Assembly: GCA_009784425.1 (NCBI GenBank)
Contig: WRBR01000010.1
Span: 1-32,757, forward strand
DNA from: Coriobacteriia bacterium
Lineage (GTDB): Bacteria; Actinomycetota; Coriobacteriia; Coriobacteriales; UBA8131
Direction: 5' to 3'
DNA: 32,757 nucleotides
Shown here: positions 4,073-30,418 of the stretch, in pieces
Layout of the letters: each line of letters opens with the position of its first letter
Position numbering within the stretch: position 1 is the stretch's first letter
The notes under the pieces: model-generated
Database searches by the model: none
Seen by the model: the letters and a program-made list of their open reading frames with translations, nothing else
What the model was told of the DNA's origin: nothing
Made by a program: the position numbers and the translations under genes

Positions 4073-4102
4073 AATACTACTGCGTAGCAGAAGTATTGTC
4101 AA
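4073..4102 (-). promoter_or_regulatory. higBA promoter with palindromic operator
   Basis: On the minus strand, TTGACA (4102-4097), a 17-base spacer and TAGTAT (4079-4074) form a strong sigma70-type promoter. The spacer and -10 coincide with an interrupted palindrome, on the plus strand AATACT-a-CTGC-gta-GCAG-a-AGTATT (4073-4097). That is a natural HigA operator for autorepression. Seen directly in sequence; binding is inferred. Confidence 0.65.
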
Positions 4103-4121
4103 GTGGGACAAGAGATGGGGG
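4080..4121. repeat. direct repeat, copy 1 (left of the PIN module)
   Basis: A 42-bp stretch starting CTGCGTAGCAGAAGT and ending GACAAGAGATGGGGG recurs at 5122-5163 with two mismatches. Copy 1 contains the -35 and most of the operator of higBA. Together the two copies bracket the RHH/PIN toxin-antitoxin genes. Confidence 0.85.
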
Positions 4122-4123
4122 GG

Positions 4124-4155
4124 TGAGACAGTGACCCATACGCCCCCATTGACTC
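4124..4155. repeat. REP-derived fragment before the RHH/PIN promoter
   Basis: After the G-run of the direct repeat come CCATACGCCCCCATTGACTC and flanking bases. TACGCCCCC adjoining TGACTC or its complement is also found just after the aquaporin gene, and AGTCAATGGGG appears at 5054-5064 and 5164-5174. It reads as debris of the window's repeat family. Confidence 0.4.
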
Positions 4156-5121: not shown

Positions 5122-5163
5122 CTGCGTAGCAGAAGTGTTGTCATGTGGGACAAGAGATGGGGG
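5122..5163. repeat. direct repeat, copy 2 (right of the PIN module)
   Basis: This is the second copy of the 42-bp repeat at 4080-4121, with two mismatches. It keeps CTGC-GTA-GCAG of the higBA operator but lacks the left AATACT arm, so only part of the operator was duplicated. Confidence 0.85.
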
Positions 5164-5217
5164 AGTCAATGGGGATAGAGTCATTGTGCGGGTATCGCGA
5201 ATGGACATTACAGCGTT

Positions 5218-20645: not shown

Positions 20646-23489
20646 ATGAGCGAGCGAGTCATTGCGGTTATTGACGGCAATTCATTAATGCATCGAGCCT
20701 TCCATGCGGTGCAACACCCCATGAATGCACCGGATGGGCGTCCCACCAATGCCTGCTTTGGGTTTATTGCCATGCTGCTCAAACTCGTGGGCGACTTTAA
20801 GCCCTCGGGGGTCATCGCCGCCTTTGACGCGGGCATTCCGGCCTCTCGCTTTGAGGCAATTCAGGAGTACAAGGCACAGCGGCCGCCAACCGATCCTGAG
20901 CTCAAGGCGCAGTTTCCGATGATCGAAGAGCTGCTCAAGTCGCTCAATATCCCGGTTGTGCGGGTGCAGGACTTTGAGGGAGACGACATCCTCGGCACGC
21001 TCTCTCTCATGGCTGAGGAGCAGGGCAACATCAAGACCCTCCTGATTACCGGTGACAAGGACGCCCTGCAGCTTGCCTCGGACAAAACCGTCATCGTCAC
21101 CAATCGAACCGGTATGAGCGAGGTCACGATTTATGATCCCGCCGGGGTCTATGAGCGCTTTGGCGTGGAGCCCGTGCAGGTGCCGGATTTTCTGGGGCTG
21201 ATGGGCGACAGCTCGGATAACATCCCCGGTATCCCCGGCGTGGGGCCTAAAACCGCCACCAAGCTTTTGCAGGATTACGGAAGTCTCGAGAACGTCCTTG
21301 CGCATGCAGGTGACCTCAAGGGCAAGCTGGCCGAGAAGGTGGCCGAGGGAGCCCAGAAAGCTCTTGACTCAAGACAGGTGGCCACGATTATCCGCGATGT
21401 GCCCCTCACTATAGATTTTGATACCGTTGAGTTCCCCAACTTTGACAGCACCGAGGTCAAGCGCGCCTTTGGGGAGCTGGGCATGATGAGCCAACTGCGC
21501 AAGCTGCTGAGATTGACAGGGAAGAATGCTGATGACATTCCCGCGCCCACCATCTCAAGACCACCTTTGGTAGTTGTGCAGGGAGAAAGTGGTACAGGGG
21601 GGACGGGGTTTGGTGTACCACTTTCCATAGAAAGTGGTACACCAAACCCCGTCCCCCCTGTACCACCAAACCCCGTCCCTCCTGTACCACTTTCTCCGTT
21701 CCCGGTGACACACTCTTTAGAGAAACTAGGCGAATCAGAACAACTGGGGCTCTATCTCAATGCCTCAGACGCCAACGCCTCGGCAAAAACCAAGAGCGCG
21801 CAGCAAAGTCTGCTGCTGGATGATGTTGAGGAGCAAGAAAAGGCCCTCTATATTGCTACAGAAAATAGCACAATAGTGGTTTCAGGCGAAGAAGTGCCTG
21901 GGGCTCTCAAGTCGCTACTGCTGAGTAAGCACAGCCTGGCGTGTTACAACCTCAAGGGACTACTGGCCTTACTCGCGCCACCTGACACCAGCGAAGATGC
22001 TCTCCTGACCAGCGCGGAACTTCTGAACTGCAAAGCCTTTGACCTGAGTGTGGCCAGCTATTTGCTTGATTCGGACAGACCCATGAACGATCCGGCAGCC
22101 TTTGTTGAGCGGTTCTTTCCCGAGGTTGACCTCGAAAAGCTCCAGCAAGAAGAGGCAGAGAGCAAGGATAAAGGCTCGCGCTACGCAGCCACGCTTGCCG
22201 CCGCCGCGAGGGCAATTGCCCCTCACCTCAAAGATGAATTGACAGCCACTGAGGCGCTCAATTGCTACGAGCAGATTGAGCAGCCACTCACCTCCGTGCT
22301 CGTGCAGATGGAGCGCAGCGGGGTGCTGGTAGACACCAAGGTCCTTGCTGAGCAGGGCAAGACCCTCACAGCACGCATCGAGGAACTACAAAAACAAGCG
22401 CTCGAGATGGCCGGCACAGAATTCAACCTTGATTCTCCCAAGCAGGTAGGGGAGATACTGTTTGAAAAACTGCAGCTGCCCACGGGCAAAAAAACCAAGA
22501 GCGGCTACTCCACTGATGCGAGCGTGCTTGCAGATCTTAAGTCGCACTCTCCACTACCGGGCATCATTTTAGATTACCGTGAGCTGGCAAAGCTCCGCTC
22601 AACTTACATAGAGGCACTGCCCAGGCTGGTTGCAGAAGACGGCCTCATCCACACCAGCTTCAATCAAACGGTAACCGCAACAGGAAGGCTCTCGTCTTCT
22701 GACCCCAACCTCCAAAACATTCCCGTGCGCACCGACATTGGCAAGCACATACGCACGGCCTTTGTGGCTGACCCCCAAGCCTTGGGCGTGGAGCAGGCAG
22801 TTTTTGTCTCTGCCGATTATTCGCAGATTGAACTGAGGCTTTTAGCGCACCTCTCCGGTGATGAGCACCTCATCGCCGCCTTTGTTCACGGCGAGGATTT
22901 TCACCGAGAAACAGCCGCTCGCGTCTTTGGGATTAAGTCTGAAGATGTAACGCCGCAGATGCGCGGCAGAGCCAAGGCAGTGAACTTTGGCATTGTGTAT
23001 GGGCAGCAGGCCTTTGGGCTCGCACAAAGTTTGGGAATCGGCTTTGCAGAGGCAGGCCAGATGATTAAGCGCTACTTTGAGGCCTATCCTCAAGTGCACG
23101 AGTACCTCGAGAGCCTCAAGGCACAGGCACATACCCAGGGCTGGGTTGAGACGATTTTTGGCCGCCGCCGCCAGATTCGCGAGATAGCCTCGAGAATCCC
23201 CGCCCGCCGCAATTTTGCCGAGCGCACTGCCATGAATCACCCCATGCAGGGCTCCGCTGCTGACATCGTCAAGCTGGCCATGAACCGCATTGCCCTCAAA
23301 CTGGAAGAAGAGGGCTACCGCTCCAAGATGGTGCTACAGGTACACGACGAGCTAGACTTCAACTGCGACACAAGCGAGCTGGAGAAACTCTCATCTATGG
23401 TTACCGCCACCATGCAAGACGTTGTGACCCTCAAGGTTCCCTTGATGGTTGAGGTTTCCAGCGGCCCCAATTGGGCCGAAGCCCACTGA
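20646..23489 (+). CDS. polA: DNA polymerase I, with a repeat-encoded linker insert
   Basis: A 947-residue family A polymerase. The 5'-nuclease domain occupies about residues 1-300 (IDGNSLMHRAFHAV, GVIAAFDAG, LLITGDKDALQL, GLMGDSSDNIPGIPGVGPKTA). A proline-rich insert follows at about 313-350 (NPVPPVPPNPVPPVP), encoded by a REP-like palindrome. The 3'-exonuclease-like domain (about 380-560) lacks the catalytic acidic residues, so proofreading is probably lost. The polymerase domain follows, with TGRLSSSDPNLQNIPVRT, SADYSQIELRLLAHLS, RGRAKAVNFGIVYG and MVLQVHDELDF. Roles are Okazaki fragment maturation and repair synthesis. Its TGA stop is the first part of another repeat (TGACTCACTGGGGACGGGG). 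Confidence 0.97.
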   Translation: MSERVIAVIDGNSLMHRAFHAVQHPMNAPDGRPTNACFGFIAMLLKLVGDFKPSGVIAAFDAGIPASRFEAIQEYKAQRPPTDPELKAQFPMIEELLKSLNIPVVRVQDFEGDDILGTLSLMAEEQGNIKTLLITGDKDALQLASDKTVIVTNRTGMSEVTIYDPAGVYERFGVEPVQVPDFLGLMGDSSDNIPGIPGVGPKTATKLLQDYGSLENVLAHAGDLKGKLAEKVAEGAQKALDSRQVATIIRDVPLTIDFDTVEFPNFDSTEVKRAFGELGMMSQLRKLLRLTGKNADDIPAPTISRPPLVVVQGESGTGGTGFGVPLSIESGTPNPVPPVPPNPVPPVPLSPFPVTHSLEKLGESEQLGLYLNASDANASAKTKSAQQSLLLDDVEEQEKALYIATENSTIVVSGEEVPGALKSLLLSKHSLACYNLKGLLALLAPPDTSEDALLTSAELLNCKAFDLSVASYLLDSDRPMNDPAAFVERFFPEVDLEKLQQEEAESKDKGSRYAATLAAAARAIAPHLKDELTATEALNCYEQIEQPLTSVLVQMERSGVLVDTKVLAEQGKTLTARIEELQKQALEMAGTEFNLDSPKQVGEILFEKLQLPTGKKTKSGYSTDASVLADLKSHSPLPGIILDYRELAKLRSTYIEALPRLVAEDGLIHTSFNQTVTATGRLSSSDPNLQNIPVRTDIGKHIRTAFVADPQALGVEQAVFVSADYSQIELRLLAHLSGDEHLIAAFVHGEDFHRETAARVFGIKSEDVTPQMRGRAKAVNFGIVYGQQAFGLAQSLGIGFAEAGQMIKRYFEAYPQVHEYLESLKAQAHTQGWVETIFGRRRQIREIASRIPARRNFAERTAMNHPMQGSAADIVKLAMNRIALKLEEEGYRSKMVLQVHDELDFNCDTSELEKLSSMVTATMQDVVTLKVPLMVEVSSGPNWAEAH
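21585..21695. repeat. REP-like inverted pair inserted in frame in polA
   Basis: A perfect 36-bp inverted repeat (21589-21624 and 21631-21666) with a six-base loop, plus a third partial copy of the right arm at 21665-21694. Each arm is itself a palindromic unit: GAAAGTGGTAC (21585-21595) and GTACCACTTTC (21615-21625) flank a G-rich core containing GGGACGGGG. The element is 111 bp, 37 codons, and the frame stays open through it. It is the same family as the elements at 23490-23670 and 29593-29728. Confidence 0.92.
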
Positions 23490-23670
23490 CTCACTGGGGA
23501 CGGGGCTGGTGTCCCAGATTGGAACAGGGGGACGGGGTTAGTGTTCCAATTTGACCTTGGTCAAATTGGAACACTAACCCCGTCCCCCTGTTCCAATCCC
23601 AAACAGCTGAGCCTGCCGAGTGAGTCAGTTTCCCCGTCCCCAGTGAGTCAGCCCCGTCCCTCTGTCCCAG
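23490..23670. repeat. REP-like repeat cluster between polA and pheS
   Basis: The centre is a perfect 40-bp inverted repeat (23517-23556 and 23559-23598) with a two-base loop. Each arm is a unit with stem ATTGGAAC/GTTCCAAT around AGGGGGACGGGGTTAGT. It is flanked on the left by TGACTCACTGGGGACGGGGC with GTGTCCCAG, starting at the polA stop codon, and on the right by two inverted copies of that outer unit (about 23621-23670). The whole polA-pheS gap up to about 23670 is therefore repeat DNA. Confidence 0.92.
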
Positions 23671-28449: not shown

Positions 28450-29589
28450 GTGGCTGACCAGTGGACAATCTTAGAAGCGCTTAATTGGATTGAGCAGCGC
28501 CTGACTCGCGAAGGCGAAGAGAATCCGCGGCTGGCGGCACAAATGCTCGCCGGACACGCCACCGGCCTTTCTCGCATAGAGCTCTACACCAGCTTTGACA
28601 AACCCCTCGACGAGGATGAACGAGCCGTTCTCAGAGAGTCCATTCAACGCAGACTCACAGGCGAGCCCCTGCAATACATCATAGGCAGCGTTGGCTTCCG
28701 ACACATCGAGCTGAAAGTACGCCCTCCCGTACTCATCCCCCGCCCAGAAACCGAACAGTTAGTTGAGTGCGTTTTGGGACAGAGGGACGAGGCTGTGGAA
28801 CAGGGGGTCAGGGCTGGCTCAGGATCTGGCGCAGCGGAGGCGTGCACAAAAAACACGCTTTTTTGTGCAGAAATTGCGTTTGTGCGTGATTTTAAGGCCA
28901 AAAAAGACCAAATTGGGCATGAGAAAGACAAAAAAGGGGATATTTCAGGTCATTTTGGGGCTAAAAGACACCCGGAGCCACGCACAAACGCAATTTCTGC
29001 ACATTATTTAGAGAATTCCTGCACAACGCTCTCTCGCAATCCCGAATACTTCCTCGACATTGGCACCGGCACGGGTGCGATTGCACTTTCGCTGCTTGCA
29101 GAGCTGCCCAACTGCCATGTCTATGCAACCGACATCGACGAGGCAGCAATTGCCCTCGCAAACGAAAACGCGAGAGAGCTTAAGCTCGATGAAGACGGTC
29201 GCTTGCATATACGCAAGGATGACCTGGCCAGCTCGTTTGTTGCCGATGAAGCCTATCATGGCTACTTCGACCTAGTGCTATCCAACCCGCCCTACATTCC
29301 TACCGCCGAGTATGAACAACTGCCCATAGAGATCCTGCAGTATGAAAGCAAACTGGCGCTCGATGGCGGCACCGACGGGCTTGATGTCTTCAGACGCATC
29401 GCCAAGCAAGCAGAAGTCCTACTCAAACCTGGCGGTATCCTCGCTGTTGAACTCCACGAGAATTCACTCGAAGAAGCCGCAGCCTATACGCAAGAACTGT
29501 CATACTCCCAAGTACAGATTCACAAGGACCTAACAGAGCGCAACCGCTTCCTCACCGCAATAAAAACCTCAAGGAGGAGAGAAGAGTGA
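28450..29589 (+). CDS. prmC: release factor glutamine methyltransferase PrmC with a large repeat-derived insertion
   Basis: This 379-residue protein is about 90 residues longer than typical PrmC. The N-terminal helical RF-binding domain (about 1-105, ending LIPRPETEQLVE) and the SAM-dependent Rossmann domain (from about 198, DIGTGTGAIALSLL, with VLSNPPYIP near 275) are both intact. Between them, residues about 108-195 have no counterpart in the family and coincide with REP remnants and a nested inverted-repeat element. The normal product methylates the glutamine of the GGQ motif in RF1/RF2. GTG at 28450, one base after prfA, is the start; the frame open further upstream lies inside prfA. Activity with the insert is untested, but the frame has been kept. 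Confidence 0.93.
   Translation: MADQWTILEALNWIEQRLTREGEENPRLAAQMLAGHATGLSRIELYTSFDKPLDEDERAVLRESIQRRLTGEPLQYIIGSVGFRHIELKVRPPVLIPRPETEQLVECVLGQRDEAVEQGVRAGSGSGAAEACTKNTLFCAEIAFVRDFKAKKDQIGHEKDKKGDISGHFGAKRHPEPRTNAISAHYLENSCTTLSRNPEYFLDIGTGTGAIALSLLAELPNCHVYATDIDEAAIALANENARELKLDEDGRLHIRKDDLASSFVADEAYHGYFDLVLSNPPYIPTAEYEQLPIEILQYESKLALDGGTDGLDVFRRIAKQAEVLLKPGGILAVELHENSLEEAAAYTQELSYSQVQIHKDLTERNRFLTAIKTSRRREE
28775..29003. repeat. composite repeat insertion inside prmC
   Basis: Three parts are visible. First, 28775-28795 matches the complement of 23649-23669 (outer unit of the polA-pheS repeats) in 20 of 21 positions, and 28796-28813 matches the TGGAAC-type unit in 16 of 18. Second, TGCACAAAAAA (28843-28853) and TTTTTTGTGCA (28859-28869) form an 11-bp hairpin. 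Third, a perfect 25-bp inverted repeat (28864-28888 and 28979-29003) encloses a 90-bp spacer, as in a MITE. All of it is translated in frame as part of PrmC. Confidence 0.88.
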
Positions 29590-29592
29590 AGA

Positions 29593-29728
29593 GTGGTACA
29601 GGAGGGACGGGGTTAGTGTACCAATTTGGCCCAAGTGGTACAGGAGGGACGGGGTTAGTGTACCAATTTGGCACTTGGGCCAAATTGGTACACTAACCCC
29701 GTCCCTCCTGTACCACCTCCTGTACCAC
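29593..29728. repeat. REP-like triple repeat between prmC and tsaC
   Basis: Two identical direct units (29593-29629 and 29635-29671, stem GTGGTAC/GTACCA around AGGAGGGACGGGGTTAGT) are followed by an inverted one. The right arm 29672-29716 is a perfect 45-bp complement of 29593-29637, and 29680-29716 also pairs perfectly with 29635-29671. A further CTCCTGTACCAC fragment follows (29717-29728). The cluster begins four bases after the prmC stop codon and ends 16 bases before tsaC. Confidence 0.93.
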
Positions 29729-29744
29729 AGAAACGAGAGACAGC

Positions 29745-30362
29745 ATGAGCGCACCAACACTCAGAATAAACCCAGTATCACCTGAGCCAGAACTCATCAA
29801 GCAAGCGGCTGAGGCGCTAACCCTCGGCCAGATTGTGGTGATACCAACAGACACGGTGTACGGCATCGCACAGTTAGCGAGCCCCACGGCAGACCCCGAG
29901 GAGCTCAAGAAAATCAAGGAAAGGCCAGGCGAGAAAAACATCCCCCTACTGGTAGCAAGTCTCGCCGACCTGGAGCACTACAGCACCGAGCTACCCGCCT
30001 ACGCCAAGGAGCTGGCAGCCCAGCACTGGCCGGGAGGATTAACCCTGGTGGTGCGCGCCAGCAAGGCCATGCCGCCGCAATTCATCGGAGAAGACGGCAG
30101 CGTTGCCCTGCGTATGCCGGCCTGCAACATCGCACTCGCCTTAATGGAGGCCGCCGAGGCCCCGCTGGCCTGCAGCAGCGCCAATATTTCCGGCAAACCC
30201 CCGGCTACAGCTTTTGCGGAGCTAGACCCCCTGCTTGCCGAGCGCGTCTCACTTATCGTGGACGGAGGAGGCCTTTCAGGAGGCGTGCCCTCAACCGTGA
30301 TATGCTGTCTGAACAAACAACCAAAACTCCTACGCCCAGGAGCGGTAAGAGTTAAGAGTTAA
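29745..30362 (+). CDS. tsaC: threonylcarbamoyl-AMP synthase (TsaC/YwlC/Sua5 family)
   Basis: A 205-residue YrdC-fold enzyme. It has GQIVVIPTDTVYGIAQLA, the lysine-rich loop (KKIKERPGEKNIPLLV), HWPGGLTLVV, VALRMPAC and the signature CSSANISGKPPA. It makes threonylcarbamoyl-AMP from threonine, bicarbonate and ATP for the t6A modification of ANN-decoding tRNAs. The prfA-prmC-tsaC order is common in Gram-positive bacteria. It lacks the Sua5 C-terminal domain. The last codons (VRVKS, then TAA) are read from the first units of a heptamer array, so the natural C-terminus may have been altered slightly. Confidence 0.94.
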   Translation: MSAPTLRINPVSPEPELIKQAAEALTLGQIVVIPTDTVYGIAQLASPTADPEELKKIKERPGEKNIPLLVASLADLEHYSTELPAYAKELAAQHWPGGLTLVVRASKAMPPQFIGEDGSVALRMPACNIALALMEAAEAPLACSSANISGKPPATAFAELDPLLAERVSLIVDGGGLSGGVPSTVICCLNKQPKLLRPGAVRVKS

Positions 30363-30418
30363 GAGTTAAGAGTTAAGAGTTAAGAGAGAAGAGAGAAGAG
30401 AGAAGAGAGAAGAGTTAA
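30349..30418. repeat. ten-unit heptamer tandem repeat at the tsaC stop codon
   Basis: Five GAGTTAA units (30349-30383), four GAGAGAA units (30384-30411) and one GAGTTAA (30412-30418) run without interruption, 70 bp in all. The tsaC stop TAA (30360-30362) lies in unit 2. Such an array is prone to slippage in copy number. Confidence 0.95.

Follow-up and report, generated by a model that had tools for sequence, protein, structure and literature searches.

The stretch of DNA analysed here (the window; 32,757 nt, positions 1 to 32,757 of contig WRBR01000010.1 from a Coriobacteriia bacterium) carries on its forward strand polA, the gene for DNA polymerase I, as an open reading frame at 20646-23489 that runs for 947 uninterrupted codons, with no stop across the palindrome that lies within it. 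Its product matches two NCBIfam equivalogs, TIGR00593 (889.5 bits against a cut-off of 600, with residues 7-947 covered) and NF004397 (968.8, cut-off 720), and Pfam profiles place the 5'-3' exonuclease domain at residues 6-267 (20661-21446; PF02739 and PF01367) and the polymerase family A domain at residues 565-945 (22338-23480; PF00476). Between the two, in frame on the same strand and as part of the interdomain linker, sits a REP cluster of three units at 21582-21697. A first-pass annotation had described a REP-like palindrome translated in frame between the domains, and this was borne out in both respects: the stretch it named, 21585-21695, encodes residues 314-350 (ESGTGGTGFGVPLSIESGTPNPVPPVPPNPVPPVPLS), and the arms of the inverted repeat are 37 nt where it had given 36 bp. 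The left arm (21589-21625, with the core GGGACGGGG at 21600-21608) and the right arm (21630-21666, with the core CCCCGTCCC at 21647-21655) are 100% complementary around a 4-nt loop. A third, tandem unit at 21664-21697 (core 21671-21679) stands 24 nt, or 8 codons, from the second, and this partial arm also pairs with 21582-21615 (34 nt, 97%), such that the element holds three core units in all, at 21600 (+), 21647 (-) and 21671 (-). As single-stranded DNA it folds at -53.6 kcal/mol (z = -14.9, equalled by 0 of 200 shuffles) and as RNA at -85.6 kcal/mol (z = -14.2). A low-confidence AlphaFold2 model of PolA built from a 6-sequence alignment (mean pLDDT 49) predicts no secondary structure in residues 290-366.

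The first reading of the sequence had also placed members of the same family between genes of the window, and we find them at 23485-23669, on the 3' side of the polA stop (40-nt arms 23517-23556 and 23559-23598, perfect), and at 29592-29721 (45-nt arms 29593-29637 and 29672-29716, 100%). Congeners G004 and G003 likewise have REP cores immediately 3' of polA (L090 near 1456 and L092 near 4395, respectively), and the 3' side of polA is thus a REP site common to these two and the source genome. Read by eye, the unit consists of the conserved core GGGACGGGG between short, co-varying stem arms, of which we distinguish the types GGTACA..TGTACC, GGAACA..TGTTCC and GTCAC..GTGAC. A 16-mer from the core region, allowing at most one mismatch, has 541 matches in the source genome (2.0 Mb), where its reversed control has 0; it matches four congeners 34, 6, 4 and 15 times, and most of another 95 genomes from the order not once. 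The closest named relatives of the source genome are the MAGs Emb289P3bin142 and Jx357_bin18, which, to judge by their isolate names, probably come from termite guts.

A census over 94 contigs (1.73 of 2.00 Mb, and hence a lower bound) gave 253 REP clusters, 178 of them with two or more cores, in which the prevailing spacings are 44-51 nt for inverted pairs and 24 nt for tandem units. The family therefore consists of short, high-copy palindromic repeats whose inverted doublets fold into a hairpin, as the z of -14.9 for the polA element illustrates, and it is mostly extragenic, with about 28 of the 253 clusters inside reading frames that have coding signal on both sides. The source genome is a fragmented draft of 146 contigs, about 86% complete. 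Of the 253 clusters, 56 are no more than about 215 bp away from the end of a contig, and the REP family ranks among the main reasons why this assembly breaks.

One intact Y1_Tnp gene was found in the source genome, with a HUH motif (DNHVHLLLK) and a tyrosine region (YIHQNPLLAG) as in RAYTs, and REP units of the form TGACAAGGGGACGGGGCGTTTGTCA flank it. A congener RAYT that is 87% identical is bounded on either side by a TGACAAGGGGACGGGGCGTTTGTCA unit, the two being inverted relative to each other. Other RAYTs from the order are flanked by REPs built to this plan but with different stems, and in the source genome and its relatives the REPs flanking RAYTs carry a related GGGGACGG core. These units share the GGGGACGGGG core with the polA unit but have a different stem (TGACAA/TTTGTCA). 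A RAYT flanked by a REP with the exact GGTACA-type stem of polA was not found in this genome, which is about 86% complete and has contigs that end in RAYT or REP copies, so that such a gene may yet exist. The polA-type subfamily is presumably mobilised by a RAYT. The C-terminal 110 codons of the RAYT also occur alone in several copies (86-95% identical), three or more of them on contig C31; C31, C48 and C49 end in RAYT or REP sequence, and the RAYT loci are L192 (G000:C48), L315 (C49) and L320, L323 and L326 (C31).

The polA element is one of a set. Across the 1.73 Mb we count 23 REP clusters that lie in frame with coding signal in one frame on both sides, to which a second method adds 5; 24 of these hold two or more cores and 4 a single core, the latter being weaker cases because chance should yield about 13 such 9-mers over this length of DNA. 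They lie in frame and without a stop inside many unrelated genes. NCBIfam names, over the cut-off in at least one model, cover DnaX, RsgA, YbeY, MtaB, CysS and PriA among the products, and a TatD-family nuclease has a match below the cut-off; by eye, UvrD/PcrA, ABC-F, a copper ATPase, GlyQS, a FolK-RsmI fusion, SelB and AroE-AroK would also be hosts. The gene at C41:5219 has no NCBIfam name at the threshold used, and its product resembles RimM, an unconfirmed likeness. The GlyQ-GlyS and FolK-RsmI fusions are also present in congeners and were therefore not created by the REP. At the ends of reading frames we counted about 9 C-terminal tails and 18 N-terminal cases; among the former, the reading frames at C43:11641 and C15:18961 of the source genome (G000), which resemble MiaA and an ABC ATPase respectively, have C-terminal tails that run into a REP.

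The intragenic copies are distinguished from the others by their codon phase. Where neighbouring units face the same way, the distance between them is divisible by 3 in 29 of 31 instances inside genes versus 55 of 135 others (Fisher p = 3.6e-8), a result less exposed than the next to the choice of copies in open frames, yet not wholly independent of it. REP units with TTAG bring a stop in one frame, and TTAGT cores are depleted inside genes, at 6 of 70 versus 207 of about 530 elsewhere (p = 9e-8), where the 530 is a lower bound taken from the listed types and where stop avoidance is partly built in, the intragenic set having been chosen for open frame. Selected spacing together with stop depletion is the pattern expected of translated copies and not of assembly error, and the intragenic REPs are, to judge from their sequence, probably translated. 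Statistics of this kind provide an internal control that parts translated from untranslated copies without proteomics.

The comparison with orthologues gave a less simple picture for polA itself. It had been proposed that the element is read as about 37 extra residues, and relatives lacking exactly residues 313-350 had been named as the sign of a recent insertion. Neither held: between conserved anchors the linker of the window PolA measures about 73-76 aa and those of four congeners 91, 57, 83 and 66 aa, the congener linkers at the REP site are unrelated in sequence, length-variable and of low complexity, and we found no clean empty site in their polA orthologues. Just downstream, all four congeners share a helix of about 20 residues (SLQxIIxGxxALxxLQxLL), followed by EQLGLYL, and this helix is absent from the window PolA. 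Since the linker of the window PolA is not longer than those of the congeners and the helix is missing, an insertion would have been accompanied or followed by loss, and the event in polA appears to be a replacement, or an insertion plus loss, with no clean gain of 37 residues. The finding named beforehand as one that would speak against insertion, the same proline-rich segment free of the palindrome in most relatives, was seen in 0 of 105 PolA linkers. In the 19 genes whose congener orthologues could be used, the source genome has on average 16 residues more at the REP site, and RsgA and PriA come nearly clean, with congener lengths that are steady or short and a REP that adds about 30 and 40 residues, respectively. 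REP sites are indel hot spots in the congeners: an indel of at least 5 aa falls at the REP site in 106 of 130 congener pairs (82%), versus 9.9% for same-size windows elsewhere in the same genes, in keeping with the earlier suggestion that the linker tolerates inserts. We also considered that the linkers of relatives might all still be palindromic and rejected it, as they are no more strongly folded than the genes around them (MFE per nt -0.327 versus a background of -0.310, p = 0.31).

Traces of REPs at orthologous sites in the sister species are few. Exact cores remain in pcrA and the copper ATPase gene of G002 and in dnaX of G003, none with a full palindrome, that is at 3 of 54 orthologous sites, with no recognisable core remnant at the other 51. 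The sites, which together span 8.0 kb, hold these 3 cores, compared with 3 in 86 kb of the remaining reading frames (binomial p = 0.01), two of which lie upstream of a likely start. In addition, cysS of congener G001 has an in-frame REP of G001's own subtype at another place. The remnants fit insertion followed by decay, and equally repeated hits on tolerant sites, and the numbers are small. A broader proposal, that the hypervariable interdomain linkers in housekeeping proteins of this genus derive largely from decaying REP insertions, so that new disordered segments come chiefly from mobile palindromes, is one we put forward tentatively and consider doubtful. The idea raised at first pass, that intergenic repeats can become protein sequence, therefore stands as far as at least 24 in-frame multi-unit clusters, their frame-selected spacing and the core remnants carry it, and falls short in the clean gain for polA and in the novelty of the kind of event.

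We think it very probable that the polA element is a tolerated REP of the RAYT type, a selfish passenger in a variable PolA linker that is translated in frame. According to this model, an inverted doublet with one tandem unit would have landed in an already variable and unstructured linker between the 5'-nuclease and the exonuclease-like and polymerase part of PolA, and with the frame kept the element would be read as a proline/glycine-rich linker and persist. Insertions at random coding places would mostly be purged, the survivors being those that are in frame, have no in-frame stop and sit in a linker tolerant of length; these would then gain or lose 8 codons at a time and by decay become ordinary linker sequence. 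In this account the intragenic REPs are probably neutral and probably decay. An adaptive reading, in which REP-coded linkers alter the activity of PolA and other replication and repair proteins, for instance to give mutator states, draws on the several REP-bearing genes of that class (polA, priA, pcrA/uvrD, dnaX and the TatD-family nuclease) and on the adaptive role proposed for other species with REPs in such genes (PMC3733652). Judged by the gene list such a role is possible, but most REP-bearing genes are unrelated housekeeping genes (cysS, glyQS, rsgA, ybeY, mtaB, folK-rsmI and selB) and the REP sites coincide with length-variable linkers, as neutral tolerance predicts, and we regard it as unlikely.

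It is more unlikely still that the hairpin acts as RNA by slowing ribosomes at the domain boundary, to aid cotranslational folding or set expression. The strong RNA fold given above and the interdomain position are what such a role would call for, yet congeners have no hairpin there, the linkers of relatives fold like the rest of their genes (p = 0.31), and elements of the REP family all fold strongly wherever they are located. That repeat collapse or a false join in the metagenome assembly produced the polA palindrome we consider very improbable: the draft of 146 contigs, with 56 of 253 clusters near contig ends, does indicate that the repeat breaks assemblies, but polA is in the same frame on both flanks, two dozen copies inside genes stay in codon phase and free of stops, as errors would not, and an independent in-frame REP is present in cysS of a congener assembly. 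Finally, the low-complexity linker found at this site in all congeners might suggest an old, conserved proline-rich PolA linker with a palindromic look by chance, to which we attach almost no weight; inverted repeats in the other 104 PolA linkers reach at most 11 nt, as against 37 in the window polA, and the DNA of the element matches hundreds of dispersed copies, and the comparison of inverted repeats and the genome-wide 16-mer matches refute it.

With the tolerated passenger as the preferred reading, the polA REP has several known counterparts. Earlier examples of protein-coding palindromes come mainly from Rickettsia and Wolbachia. REPs in frame inside reading frames of several species, many of them in genes for replication and repair and with DNA polymerase I named explicitly, were described by Di Nocera et al. 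(2013), who also discussed the tolerance of flexible linkers and the decay of intragenic REPs (PMC3733652). As in that work, units, dimers and clusters lie in frame inside reading frames, DNA polymerase I included; the difference is that here the core GGGGACGGGG comes with interchangeable stems and not with GTAG/CGTC end tags (PMC3733652). REPs of the CGTC-tagged class have an unpaired CGTC at one end, a stem of 8-9 bp and a loop of 4-5 nt (PMC3733652). We considered this class for the present family and rejected it on structure: here the CGTC is central in the unit (CCCCGTCCC), with the stem arms GTGGTACA and TGTACCAC to either side of it and separated by about 17 nt. In Rickettsia conorii about half of the 44 RPEs lie inside reading frames (PMC10969869), and WPE-like insertions are reported in priA (PMC4224334). 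The family described here shares with the Rickettsia RPEs and Wolbachia WPEs the occurrence of palindromes in frame in many unrelated genes, with priA hit here as by the WPE-like elements, but differs in that about 90% of copies are outside reading frames, that short REPs stack in 24-nt steps and that RAYTs are present; the likeness is one of the way of working, and we set the family beside them by description, with no membership claimed. Similar to REPINs and their RAYTs (PMC3116915), inverted REP doublets form hairpins and REPs of the same plan flank RAYTs in the same genomes, whereas REPINs are described as extragenic and here a tenth of the clusters are coding.

As far as PMC3733652, PMC10969869 and PMC4224334 show, what is new is the density of REPs within reading frames in Coriobacteriia and the evidence from codon phase; the word 'Actinobacteria' is absent from the text of PMC3733652. 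The phenomenon known from Rickettsia and Wolbachia is thereby extended to Coriobacteriia, in a genome that also has RAYT genes, and the congeners, standing at several stages (perfect palindrome, remnant and unrelated linker), make a selfish-repeat origin of disordered segments testable within one genus. Three other repeats were noted in the window: a 45-nt direct repeat (93% identical; 4080-4124 and 5122-5166, about 1 kb apart) that lies outside the REP family, a perfect 25-nt inverted repeat unrelated to it (28864-28888 and 28979-29003, with 90 nt between the arms), and a tandem heptamer-like repeat (AGAGTTA/AGAGAGA) at 30341-30417, at the 3' end of the reading frame 29745-30362.
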